From a virus: a stretch of 32,270 nucleotides of DNA. Below the pieces are notes generated by a model. It was given only the letters and a program-made list of their open reading frames with translations. It was not told the DNA's origin and searched no databases. Location of the stretch: IMG/VR virus record IMGVR_UViG_3300042691_004934, positions 1-32,270 of that record; one strand, 5' to 3'. Positions within the stretch are counted from its first letter, which is position 1, and every line of letters begins with the position of its first letter. This document shows positions 5,239 through 19,175 of the stretch, piece after piece. A program made the position numbers and the translations under genes.

Positions 5239-5655
5239 TTATCTGAATTTAATATGTGAAATTACCAAATCAAATGCGCGTTTCACATCGGTATCACCTT
5301 GTGTTGATTCAACGCCATCATTCAAAAATTCACAATTTTTCAAAACGTGTGTAACCACTTTTTGTGCATTTAAGTATGTAACCGTAATATCAAACGCCGG
5401 TATTTGTAACAATGATCCGTTTGGTGCTGAATCTCTTAACGCCTCAACATCATTCATTGAAATGGTGATGTTTCCCGATGCATTAATTGCCCCATGTCCA
5501 CGCGAAACCGGTCGATTTCCCATGCCCATGTTGTTAACTTTTTCCTGTTCTTCTGTGTAACTGATGGCCGAAACGCCGGCCACCGGAACACCTAAAATGT
5601 TAACCACTATTTGCGCGAAATCGTATGCGCGCCCATTAATTAAAGGTAATGCCAT
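5239..5655 (-). CDS. tail tube protein
   Basis: 138 aa, directly downstream of the sheath gene and 2 nt upstream of the tail chaperone. It has the tube-protein plan: a MALPLINGRAYDFAQI start, a VNILGVPVAGVSAI strand pair, the long loop (NNMGMGNRPVSRGHG), ITISMNDVEAL, and a C-terminal strand pair with KRAFDLVISHIKFR. It forms the inner tube of the contractile tail. The call rests on length, pattern and position between sheath and tape measure. Confidence 0.88.
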   Translation of the reverse strand: MALPLINGRAYDFAQIVVNILGVPVAGVSAISYTEEQEKVNNMGMGNRPVSRGHGAINASGNITISMNDVEALRDSAPNGSLLQIPAFDITVTYLNAQKVVTHVLKNCEFLNDGVESTQGDTDVKRAFDLVISHIKFR

Positions 5656-16918: not shown

Positions 16919-16928
16919 TATTATGGCG

Positions 16929-16936
16929 GTTAGCGG
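16929..16936. repeat. lone cassette core site at left edge of island (GTTAGCGG)
   Basis: GTTAGCGG occurs here at the boundary between the phage body and the DUF4326 unit, identical to the core at 17355-17362. A TTATAAC follows at 16941-16947. I cannot find a clear stem partner, so this could be an insertion point or a decayed site. Confidence 0.45.
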
Positions 16937-16953
16937 ATAGTTATAACCAATGC

Positions 16954-17274
16954 TTACTGACATAGTTCTAATAAAGTATCTGCATGACATTCACAAGAAA
17001 GCGAACAAAAACACGCTAAGTTTTTACCTCTTAATGTTTTAATATTTTCGCTAATCCATTTAAACCTATCAAACTCAATACTCGCTTGTATTTCATCAAT
17101 CCATCGGTAAACCATAGCGTTGTTTAATATACATTCTCTGTATCTTAAAACCGCTTCCTTTGCTCCTAATTCACTTACTAAAAATGGATTGCCCCATTTA
17201 GTCGGTCTACCAACATAAACAGTATTTTCAGGCATCTTAAATCCTTTTGTTCGCTTTCTTTGTATTCGTTCCAT
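16954..17274 (-). CDS. DUF4326-family protein (cassette gene)
   Basis: 106 aa. The family signature is present at both ends: YVGRPTKWGNPFLV (residues 20-33) and LRGKNLACFCSLSCECHADT (82-101), where the Cys and His residues could bind metal. Biochemical function is unknown; such proteins are frequent in phages, plasmids and mobile regions. The gene begins 27 nt after the inverted-repeat element ending at 17302, is GATC-free, and has codon use unlike the phage body, all pointing to transfer. It is likely a moron or cassette cargo rather than essential. Confidence 0.85.
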   Translation of the reverse strand: MERIQRKRTKGFKMPENTVYVGRPTKWGNPFLVSELGAKEAVLRYRECILNNAMVYRWIDEIQASIEFDRFKWISENIKTLRGKNLACFCSLSCECHADTLLELCQ

Positions 17275-17301
17275 AATTATATTTCGTTAAATAATCGCAC
17301 T

Positions 17302-17362
17302 GGTTATAACAGCGTATAAAAGCCATTAAAAAAAACGGCTCTTATACGCAAACCGTTAGCGG
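17302..17362. repeat. attC-like inverted repeat 1
   Basis: + strand order: TTATAAC (17304-17310), one A, stem arm 17312-17324, 12-nt loop, stem arm 17337-17349 (12 of 13 positions pair), five bases AAACC, then GTTAGCG (17355-17361). It has the same core-A-stem...stem-5nt-GTTA plan as the two elements at 17694-17825 and 17923-18049. It separates the DUF4326 gene from the 147-aa gene, whose stop codon lies inside the GTTA core. Confidence 0.65.
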
Positions 17363-17760
17363 TAATACTGCGACATCGCTCCGTAGAAAGTTTGTGCCAT
17401 ATTCTCAAACTCTATCAAATCAATGTTTTTACTAACACACATATCAATTCTATCTTCACCCAAAACCATACACTCATACATTATTCCTATTCTGTTTGCG
17501 TATGGGTCACGGTCTGCATACTTTCTAAAATCATAAAACAATATGCCTATCTGGTAAATTTTATCTTCACCATTTTTAAAAGTTTTCCAATAACAGAAAT
17601 CTTCGTTTTTATGGTTTTGAACGTATCTTCTGTATCCTAATTCTTTGAGTTTGGTTTCCGTTTTAGATAACCATTCATCCCAAGAAGTACTACCGCTAAC
17701 ATCCGCTATAAGTAATGGCGGTTGCAGTGGTAATTGGACATTTGTGCTTTCTTTTGTCAT
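17356..17760 (-). CDS. unknown cassette protein
   Basis: About 134 aa from the ATG at 17760 (MTKESTNVQLPLQPPLLIAD); an ATG at 17799 would give 147 aa but lies inside a 20-bp stem. The body is a mixed alpha/beta domain (TETKLKELGYRRYVQNHKNE, then KIYQIGILFYDFRKY and IGIMYECMVLG). I do not recognise a family. Residues around PPLLIADVSG are encoded by the right-hand attC-like element, so the reading frame runs through that site. The stop lies in the core GTTA of element 1. The gene is GATC-free. Confidence 0.7.
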   Translation of the reverse strand: MTKESTNVQLPLQPPLLIADVSGSTSWDEWLSKTETKLKELGYRRYVQNHKNEDFCYWKTFKNGEDKIYQIGILFYDFRKYADRDPYANRIGIMYECMVLGEDRIDMCVSKNIDLIEFENMAQTFYGAMSQYYR

Positions 17761-17825
17761 TTGTACTAAATTTAAAGTGAGTAGTTCTAAATCCGCCACT
17801 ACTCATAGCGGAATACCGTTATAAG
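17694..17825. repeat. attC-like inverted repeat 2
   Basis: CGCTAAC (17694-17700), one A, then arm 17702-17721 pairs with arm 17793-17812 at 18 of 20 positions, then ATACC and GTTATAAG (17818-17825). The ~70-nt loop holds the likely start of the 147/134-aa gene, and the left arm is inside its coding region. The architecture is the same as in the neighbouring elements. At ~132 bp it is in the size range of long integron attC sites. Confidence 0.7.
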
Positions 17826-18001
17826 TCAGTTTGCTCAACTACTATTTTTAAGCATTCCCAACATTTATAACATTTATCTCTATAATATTCCCTTCGTATT
17901 TGTGGATGTTCGCAAACCGAACTTATAACAGCACCCTTGCGCAGTTTAGCATCAGGATTAGTTGGGGTTGCGTTATCTTTAAATTGTTTATCTGTTATCA
18001 T
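17819..18001 (-). CDS. small Cys/His zinc-ribbon-like cassette protein
   Basis: 60 aa. Cys30, His32, Cys44, Cys47 and Cys50 (CEH ... KCYKCWECLKI) suggest a small zinc-binding module. Residues ~20-29 (LRKGAVISSV) are encoded by the left arm and core of attC-like element 3, so the N-terminus may be a by-product of that site. The start codon sits in that element's loop. The stop overlaps the GTTATAA core of element 2. No GATC, and composition unlike the phage body. Function unknown. Confidence 0.65.
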   Translation of the reverse strand: MITDKQFKDNATPTNPDAKLRKGAVISSVCEHPQIRREYYRDKCYKCWECLKIVVEQTDL

Positions 18002-18049
18002 AATTTTTTGGTTATTAAATTAAACTGCGCAAGGCTGCAAAACGTTATG
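17923..18049. repeat. attC-like inverted repeat 3
   Basis: TTATAAC (17923-17929), one A, then arm 17931-17948 pairs with arm 18021-18038 at 17 of 18 positions, then AAAAC and GTTATG (18044-18049). The spacing on both sides (1 nt and 5 nt) equals that of elements 1 and 2 although the stem sequences differ. This is what attC sites show: conserved core and geometry with variable stem. The 72-nt loop contains the start of the 60-aa gene. Confidence 0.7.
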
Positions 18050-18062
18050 TTCAATTTTATTT

Positions 18063-18692
18063 TTAAAAAATCCCTCCCCACTGGTTCGCCATAGCATCCG
18101 CAATACCCTTGAATGTTTTACTTCTTGCTTTTCGCCTTTCTTCTTTAGGTAGTTTAAAAGTTTCGTAATGCAATCGGCTGTCAGTCCTTCCGCTTTTATG
18201 CACAATAATATCCGGCTCTACAATATTTGTAGGCTCTAATTTTGGCAATCCAACTAACCACAAACAAGTGCTTTTCCTTTCAGTATGTCCAAATTGGTAA
18301 GGCTGTATTATTTGAGTAGGCTTTTTGTAAAGTCGGCTCATTATTCCTATCGGGTTTTCAATGTAGCCTTTACCTATTTTCTCCAATGCCTCTGCACACT
18401 TCAAAAAATGCTCTACGGCTTCTGCTCTTTGTTCGTGTATATTTGGAAACCTATCAGCATATTCCGGTTTATAGTATTTATTAGCTGCAACTGTTAGCCG
18501 AGTGCATTCTGGGTGCATTCCTAAAAAATCAGGCTCAATCAATTTTATGGCTTCAAAGCAATCCATTTGTAAATGCCTTTCATGATATTTTCCACTTGCC
18601 GGTAATAAGTCGCAACTATAAGCATCATGTCCAGCGTTCAAAAATGCTTCCATTACCGTTTGGCTTTCTTCGTGTGTTATTAAAACTTTCAT
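18063..18692 (-). CDS. cytosine-C5 methyltransferase-like protein with altered motif IV
   Basis: 209 aa. The start MKVLITHEESQTVMEAF and GHDAYSCDLLPASGKYHERH fit a Rossmann SAM-binding fold. HPECTRLTVA (residues 60-69) is where C5-methyltransferases have PCQ, and IENPIGIMS (111-119) corresponds to the ENV motif. Many phages carry this short family annotated as DNA cytosine methyltransferase, but the missing PCQ and small target domain leave activity uncertain. It ends 18 nt from the core of element 3 and is GATC-free. Likely roles are DNA modification or anti-restriction, inferred. Confidence 0.75.
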   Translation of the reverse strand: MKVLITHEESQTVMEAFLNAGHDAYSCDLLPASGKYHERHLQMDCFEAIKLIEPDFLGMHPECTRLTVAANKYYKPEYADRFPNIHEQRAEAVEHFLKCAEALEKIGKGYIENPIGIMSRLYKKPTQIIQPYQFGHTERKSTCLWLVGLPKLEPTNIVEPDIIVHKSGRTDSRLHYETFKLPKEERRKARSKTFKGIADAMANQWGGIF

Positions 18693-18737
18693 ATTTCCCT
18701 CGCTATTTTTTAAAATCCGTTATTTTTTTTTAAGTTA

Positions 18738-18803
18738 ACCGCCGCATTTACTGTAATAAATTTATAACATAACCGGATTAATGGTTTAGTTATGCGCGGC
18801 GGT
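18738..18803. repeat. inverted repeat and core-like motif at right edge of island
   Basis: ACCGCCGC (18738-18745) pairs exactly with GCGGCGGT (18796-18803). Between them lie TTATAAC (18762-18768) and GTTATGCG (18789-18796), the same core words as the cassette elements, but the order does not match their geometry. The repeat spans the boundary between the methyltransferase unit and the VRR-NUC gene. Confidence 0.5.
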
Positions 18804-19175
18804 GATTTTTTTCCAATGTTCTGTATTCCCTGAAATATATCCGGCCAAAATATGATCAACATCATCCAAATTCCACGCGATCCATACACACCATCCCAAT
18901 TTTGTTAATTGGCCATGAAATAACAGTTGTGTTGGCCTGATTGATCCGCCCGATGTTTTCAGTTCGATGGCCAATCCGATCCATTTTCCGGATGGATTAA
19001 AGATCATTATATCCGGAACACCGGCAACAACACCCATTTTTTTGAACTTTGCGCCATCTTTTGCGTTTCGTTTTCCGCCGTTTGGAACATGGATCGCCAA
19101 CATTTCCGGATATTTTGATCGGATTAATTGCATCGCGCTGATCTGAAAATTATCTTCTTTGCCCTGATATTTCAT
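18786..19175 (-). CDS. VRR-NUC domain nuclease
   Basis: 129 aa, single-domain PD-(D/E)xK nuclease. Conserved elements are HVPNGGKRNAKDGAKFKKMG (residues 29-48), GVPDIMIF with Asp55, AIELKTSGG with Glu71 and Lys73, and the following Gln83 (RPTQ). Stand-alone phage VRR-NUC proteins are thought to resolve branched or flap DNA during replication or recombination. It overlaps the upstream 71-aa gene by 4 nt. The stop codon is beside the GTTATGCG of the cassette island edge, which may have inserted exactly at the gene's end. Confidence 0.92.
   Translation of the reverse strand: MKYQGKEDNFQISAMQLIRSKYPEMLAIHVPNGGKRNAKDGAKFKKMGVVAGVPDIMIFNPSGKWIGLAIELKTSGGSIRPTQLLFHGQLTKLGWCVWIAWNLDDVDHILAGYISGNTEHWKKITAAHN

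Follow-up and report, generated by a model that had tools for sequence, protein, structure and literature searches.

Background

The closest described systems to the locus reported here are the integrons, together with the few phages that carry their gene cassettes. In the Vibrio superintegron, as here, single-gene cassettes form long arrays with repeats of about 125 bp, although these repeats (VCR) differ from the present sites in sequence and in spacing, and the recombinase differs as well. The canonical recombination site, attC, is composed of RYYYAAC and GTTRRRY boxes plus L boxes, with a central spacer unpaired on both sides. As for the enzyme, the IntI-specific domain is treated as defining for integrons (PMC9668308). 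A survey with IntegronFinder 2.0 reported a single complete integron in Bacteroidetes, that of Salinibacter ruber M1 (PMC9024848), while a small number of phages have been described with CALINs that contain methyltransferases, among them P12002L of Polaribacter, the attC2 of which IntI1 can recombine (PMC9892861).

Herein we analyse a virus record (the window, by which we mean this whole stretch) that is 32,270 bases long and has genes for packaging, portal and head; in it four small genes alternate with hairpins. We read this region as an array that belongs to a Bacteroidota-specific integron-like system, its four mobile cassettes of one gene each being recombined precisely at GTTA, probably by a host enzyme acting in trans, and put the probability of this reading at a little over 80%.

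Results

Geometry and boundaries of the array

Between 16,940 and 18,792 the window holds four minus-strand ORFs with three plus-strand hairpins in between (Table 1). An earlier note on this DNA had described inter-gene inverted repeats that share one geometry, and three of them are indeed present, exactly at the sites tabulated. The form TAAC-A-stem...stem-N5-GTTA occurs exactly three times in the window as against 0.035 expected in a Markov-1 control, 11 other spacing combinations of the hairpin site gave no match in the window, and on the minus strand all three sites fold well beyond dinucleotide shuffles (z from -3.4 to -5.1). Site 1, which lies outside the training set, still matches the covariance model R1 at E=1.7e-4. 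Cutting at GTTA (16940, 17355, 17818, 18044 and 18789) gives units of 415, 463, 226 and 745 bp with one minus-strand ORF each, much as had been estimated before (about 430, 460, 220 and 750 bp, single ORF each).

Table 1. Cassettes, genes, recombination sites and boundaries of the array (positions in the window)
Feature	Position	Strand	Description
Left boundary, putatively attI-like, first-cassette position	16920..16943	+	ATTATGGCGGTTAGCGGATA-GTTA, hairpin absent; end complementarity of cassette 1
Cassette 1	16940..17354	-	GTTATAACCAATGC ... DUF4326 gene ... GCACTGGTTATAAC + hairpin; mirrored ends, one ORF
DUF4326 protein, 106 aa	16954..17274	-	PF14216, 74 bits; phrog_464
Site 1, short 52-bp form	17307..17358	+	TAAC-A-GCGTATAAAAGCC...GGCTCTTATACGC-AAACC-GTTA
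Cassette 2	17355..17817	-	ends GTTAGCGGTAATAC ... GTACTACCGCTAAC + hairpin
ORF of unknown function	17356..17760	-	134 aa from ATG in site loop; 147 aa from GTG
Site 2, 125 bp	17697..17821	+	TAAC-A-TCCGCTATAAGTAATGGCGG...CCGCCACTACTCATAGCGGA-ATACC-GTTA; 89.5 bits, in model training set
Cassette 3	17818..18043	-	ends GTTATAAGTCAGTTTGC ... GCAAACCGAACTTATAAC + hairpin
60-aa ORF	17819..18001	-	start codon in site 3 loop, stop codon in site 2 core
Site 3, 122 bp	17926..18047	+	TAAC-A-GCACCCTTGCGCAGTTTA...TAAACTGCGCAAGGCTGC-AAAAC-GTTA; 59.9 bits, in model training set
Cassette 4	18044..18788	-	right-end TAAC at 18770 without standard hairpin (degenerate or junction)
DNA methyltransferase, 209 aa	18063..18692	-	phrog_757, 195 bits
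GTTA, right phage boundary	18789..18792	+	3' end of VRR_NUC gene (18786-19175)

The left limit, formerly placed at 16929, has to be moved to the GTTA at 16940, since the ends of cassette 1 mirror each other only from there. The three internal sites are standard, but the two array ends are both non-standard. We infer that the left boundary is the equivalent of attI; the corresponding place in Flavobacterium phages gains and loses whole cassettes (lillamy9-3; snork6-1 versus snork6-2). At the right end (TAAC 18770 / GTTA 18789) the standard stem is absent. Two further observations concern the flanks: within 16929-16943, 11 bases to the left of the cassette boundary, there is a second GTTAGCGG similar to the start of cassette 2, possibly the remnant of an earlier cassette; and within 18736-18805 a 7-bp stem, CCGCCGC / GCGGCGG, spans the right-end TAAC-GTTA pair, being either a degenerate site or chance.

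As to the genes, neither the ORF of cassette 2 nor the 60-aa ORF of cassette 3, which had looked zinc-ribbon-like in the earlier note, matches a Pfam or PHROG family. Genes 2 and 3 start within the loop of their right-hand site, so that their N-terminal codons cross the core. The methyltransferase gene of cassette 4 has 86% DNA identity to a cassette gene of virulent Flavobacterium phages, and the identity is limited to the gene.

Cassette ends mirror each other

Were the cassettes circles that recombine at GTTA, one would expect a match between the ends of any one unit and none between the flanks of a single site. In fact, the unit ends in the window form a longer inverted repeat than had been noticed before (TAACCAATGC/TAACCAGTGC and GCGGTAATAC/GCGGTAGTAC after GTTA): the mirroring reaches up to 15 bp around GTTA and is plain in cassettes 1-3, while in cassette 4 the match is weak, with the first four bases and then a patchy remainder. 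Among 71 bacterial cassettes, positions 1-5 after GTTA are complementary to the cassette's own other end in fractions of 0.87-0.93, and among 35 phage cassettes in 0.69-0.86. Position 7 is an invariant A that is almost never paired; in the bacterial cassettes own-end matching resumes at positions 8-11 (0.85) and ends at 12. Across one site, matching stays at shuffle level throughout, being 0.25-0.38 at most positions and 0.59 at positions 4 and 11, whose composition is biased and where shuffling gives 0.62 and 0.52. Moreover, the first four bases all match between own ends in 59/71 bacterial and 22/35 phage cassettes, as against 2/71 and 1/35 across the site. Mirrored own ends together with unmatched site flanks are, as far as sequence comparison can tell, the signature of circular cassettes recombining at GTTA.

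Distribution and structure of the site

The hairpins were searched for in Bacteroidetes genomes, a check that the earlier note had proposed, and the same sites were found in 130 of 297 Bacteroidota genomes (44% of sampled species), while the covariance model found none in 150 Pseudomonadota genomes or in 7 other control genomes, and had no match in a class 1 integron array. A blind scan of bacterial genomes was made with the 18-base right arm of the commonest site alone; most of the loci returned are from Bacteroidota, and in most of them a matching left arm is present as well, which brings the site as a whole to about 126 bases, a length near-constant in bacteria. In IMG/VR the same 18-base pattern picked 113 stretches. 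An attC array in a phage had been thought unusual, which does not hold for Bacteroidota viruses, as 73 of the 80 loci read from these stretches carry such sites; when the short form of the site was sought by an exact pattern, IMG/VR gave no match. The complete phages lillamy9-1 and hattifnatt9-1 have 12 and 11 sites respectively by the covariance model, all on one strand.

The anatomy of the site comprises an asymmetric spacer of 1 nt and 5 nt, a covarying stem of about 10 bp, an internal loop and a second stem. In an alignment of 60 sites (A1, with two from the window), the stem covariation score is 0.472, compared with 0.105 when shuffled and at most 0.085 when slid, and all 10 of the variable stem pairs show changes on both sides, with pair 5 being mostly a T-G wobble; pairing was one of the grounds on which the sites had been selected, so that the percentage of pairing is inflated. 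As a consequence of these results, the description of the units as attC-like gene cassettes stands in so far as they are mobile single-gene units at an attC-like core, but not in the sense of canonical integron attC, given the 1/5 spacer, the end repeat of up to 15 bp, and a model that misses the class 1 array and the 150 Pseudomonadota.

Cassettes gained, lost and moved in Flavobacterium phages

Near-identical pairs of phage isolates, which are virulent (PMC7077304), were compared base by base. For example, one and the same 439-bp cassette lies at 5642 in lillamy9-1 but at 2044 in lillamy9-3; the remaining array is nearly identical, and an upstream exonuclease gene differs too. This 439-bp cassette is present in sniff9-1 and absent from sniff9-2, with no substitution counted over the 9.3 kb compared. 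Isolates of snork6 differ by 342 bp at the first array position, those of mumin6 by 506 bp, and lillamy9-6 and morran9-1 by 794 and 476 bp. All simple breakpoints lie in short shared repeats of 6-12 bp that always include GTTA, whereas for random intervals of 300-900 bp the chance of having a GTTA repeat at the two ends is about 5e-5 per register (about 1 in 20,000). Lost cassettes leave a single GTTA at the empty site. Two of the events took place next to the conserved gene gp004, in the first position of the array, which may be attI-like behaviour; GTTA is also present after the chromosomal recombinase genes. Judged from these genome comparisons, the cassettes are precisely gained, lost and moved at GTTA in phages.

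According to the earlier note, it would speak against cassettes if relatives of the phage had these genes between unchanged flanks and yet lacked the inverted repeats; what the flavophages show is the contrary. In the window's own lineage, as sought by the terminase and neighbouring genes, there are one 6-kb contig that ends before the array and one weak VRR_NUC relative; because of this near-absence of related phages the empty site is not visible in that lineage, and it is the flavophages that gave the test.

These events also bear on two other explanations. Each unit might be a non-autonomous transposon (MITE-like or IS200/IS605-like) whose termini are inverted repeats and which has a hairpin end, as the inverted repeats at the unit ends and a hairpin adjoining a conserved tetranucleotide would suggest. 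However, the units stand head-to-tail sharing one GTTA, a single GTTA is left on loss, there is no target duplication beyond the core, the arrays lie beside a tyrosine recombinase, and each unit has a private end sequence, unlike a transposon family; by the empty-site and head-to-tail evidence, neither dependence on a Y1 transposase nor target-site duplication, which characterise such elements, is seen. We consider this explanation highly improbable. Slightly less probable still is that the hairpins are transcription terminators or regulatory RNA and that gene content varies by ordinary homologous recombination. Hairpins between genes and the mosaic nature of phage genomes would fit it, but the Rfam scan of the window gave no match (a tRNA search of the window found none either), and terminators would hardly account for the invariant TAAC/GTTA, the fixed 1/5 spacing, the near-constant length in bacteria and the private mirrored ends, nor homologous recombination for breakpoints that share only 6-12 bp and always contain GTTA.

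A recombinase beside the chromosomal arrays

The chromosomal arrays in Bacteroidota have at one end a tyrosine recombinase gene of about 300-580 aa that reads into the array. A close relative of this recombinase (E up to 1e-95) is present in 31 of the 297 genomes, and sites occur in 30 of these 31 versus 100 of the other 266 (Fisher p=4e-11). Recombinase and array are often on the same contig and strand (G078:C1, G080:C1, G295:C23, G037:C30, G279:C26, G119:C115, G163:C17 and G001:C12). As 100 site-positive genomes have no close copy, we assume remnants, other recombinases or missed genes there. The recombinase is also present in 96 of the 250 genomes sampled from the genus to which F. sedimenticola belongs. 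Truncated or stop-containing copies, some adjoining sites, were seen in five genomes (G213, G312, G317, G190 and G250), which suggests that the platform decays while the cassettes stay.

The best NCBIfam match for four of five array recombinases is NF040815 (XerA), with 201-231 bits and two of the five over the cut-off. On the integron integrase model TIGR02249 they reach 190-222 bits, below its cut-off of 265, in two stretches with the middle unmatched, whereas true IntIs mostly score 300-506 bits over the full model. In accordance with this, the distance between the motifs KGxKDR and HxLRH is 58-59 residues in all array recombinases measured versus 100 in 12/12 IntIs (the IntI1 sequence in this comparison is a 100% match to plasmid records), and thus the IntI-specific insertion of about 41 residues is missing in array recombinases. 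In a tree, IntI (support 100/100) forms a group distinct from the main array clade (22 rows, 98/98), and the sampled Xer proteins of Bacteroidota lie away from either; two array-linked recombinases, L144 and L308, fall outside the main clade and nearer to IntI. By their association with the arrays, we take these enzymes, related to IntI and XerA and forming a clade of their own without the IntI-specific insertion, to be the array recombinases. Array recombinases also have additional N-terminal sequence, at least some 75 aa long, in which a WS...W motif is conserved (L144:301-2043, L255:17255-18292, L256:16709-17848); it has no Pfam match and may be a module that binds the DNA of the folded site. 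AlphaFold2 run on one array recombinase with no alignment gave an unusable model (mean pLDDT 40).

It is here that the closest competing explanation has to be weighed, namely that these are canonical integron cassettes (CALIN) acquired via a host integron of the IntI type. The logic of attC-like hairpin, GTT core and attI-like entry point is the same, and the phage CALINs cited above show that integron cassettes do occur in phages. However, P12002L was searched and has no site of the present type, the class 1 array gives nothing with the site model, the array recombinases fall short of TIGR02249 in score and in motif distance, and Bacteroidetes had but the one complete integron in the survey above. 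We therefore hold a canonical origin unlikely, though better placed than the transposon or terminator explanations. The previous suggestion of help from a host integron or a related system thus survives in its second half: a related system it is, and not a canonical integron.

No tyrosine or serine recombinase in the window and two related phages, and reversed polarity of phage cassette genes

As had been noted for integron integrases, the cassettes come with no enzyme of their own: no tyrosine or serine recombinase was found in the window or in the two complete related phages, lillamy9-1 and hattifnatt9-1. In IMG/VR no contig has a close full-length array recombinase, the best being 47% identical over the catalytic part. 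Since the phages encode no such recombinase, the host enzyme probably acts in trans on phage cassettes.

Polarity was compared between the two groups by Fisher tests. In bacteria the cassette gene runs along the site direction in 53 of 54 cassettes, while in phages it does so in 0 of 31, with the start codon inside the site in 11 of the 31; among independently fetched IMG/VR loci, in a looser nearest-gene count, 6 genes run with and 155 against the site. Thus the viruses hold a mirror-image class of cassettes, whose genes point towards the attI-like end and so fit a leftward phage operon. The opposite polarity suggests two separate cassette pools, and as far as we have found this reversal between viruses and bacteria is unreported.

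DNA methyltransferases are common among the cargo. One methyltransferase cassette (AXF38279-like) is found in sniff, snork6, mumin, filifjonk and mymlan phages (L091:6210-7052, L095:5426-6268, L098:7419-8261) and has no annotation in those stretches of the lillamy, morran, hattifnatt and snusmum phages that were read. Nilsson et al. report that one specific methyltransferase was missing from every LMO9 phage whose plating on LMO6 was reduced, and the words integrase and insertion are not used there for these lytic phages (PMC7077304). The AXF38279-like cassette is a candidate for this LMO6-plating methyltransferase.

Discussion

From these results a mechanism may be proposed. Each cassette consists of GTTA, then the gene, then TAAC with the attC-like hairpin. 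In a circular intermediate the cassette ends would pair over up to 15 bp around the core and so complete the folded site, and recombination at GTTA with another site, or with the attI-like site at the left end, would insert or remove the cassette exactly. The host recombinase would act in trans on phage DNA during infection, presumably on the folded single strand, and for the phages the cassettes may be a reserve in which anti-restriction methyltransferases, along with accessory genes of other kinds, are shuffled.

On a larger scale, it seems likely, if somewhat less so than our reading of the locus itself, that Bacteroidota have a second, largely unrecognised kind of integron, with a recombinase related to IntI and XerA that never had or has lost the IntI-specific domain and with sites in about four of ten sampled species, and that their viruses, lytic ones included, keep a separate mirror-image pool shuffled by the host recombinase to change methyltransferases and other host-range genes. 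Our search of the open-access literature, with subscription papers and preprints outside its scope, did not find the system described; P12002L, tried as a known case of it, was rejected for having no such site. Standard integron surveys seem to miss the system. Integrons have been thought rare in Bacteroidota, yet a system that works similarly is present in nearly half of the species sampled and in many viruses. Because folded-site recombination apparently proceeds here without the IntI-specific domain, the system offers a test of what that domain is for, and also of the origin of integrons from Xer-like enzymes. Moreover, lytic phages swap whole accessory genes by site-specific recombination, and the variable cassettes include DNA methyltransferases.

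Comparison with known systems

Compared with the canonical integron, the system is alike in its single-gene cassettes, in an asymmetric folded site whose GTT core is completed by the next cassette, probably in entry at the array end that adjoins a tyrosine recombinase gene, and in precise excision and insertion, which our sequence comparisons show at GTTA. A recombinase gene lies beside the array in Bacteroidota chromosomes, none was found in the window, lillamy9-1 or hattifnatt9-1, and the IntI-specific domain is lacking in the array recombinases. The sites also depart from attC: GTTA is followed by variable bases, many of which break GTTRRRY, the spacer is 1/5, and the cassette-end repeat extends up to 15 bp with an invariant unpaired A, as against the 7-bp R box of attC. 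Unlike in the canonical integron, the recombinase without the IntI-specific insertion forms a separate clade and reads towards the array, and in phages the cassette gene is reversed relative to the site. The XerA-type enzymes (NF040815, 'site-specific tyrosine recombinase/integron integrase') resemble the array recombinases in the size of the catalytic domain, but most of the latter have an extra N-terminal part, and they adjoin cassette arrays and group with IntI rather than with the sampled Bacteroidota Xer proteins. Altogether, the system works like an integron, yet it is not a canonical one by its recombinase domain and its sites; it is a distinct integron-like platform of Bacteroidota with a virus-borne, polarity-reversed cassette pool.
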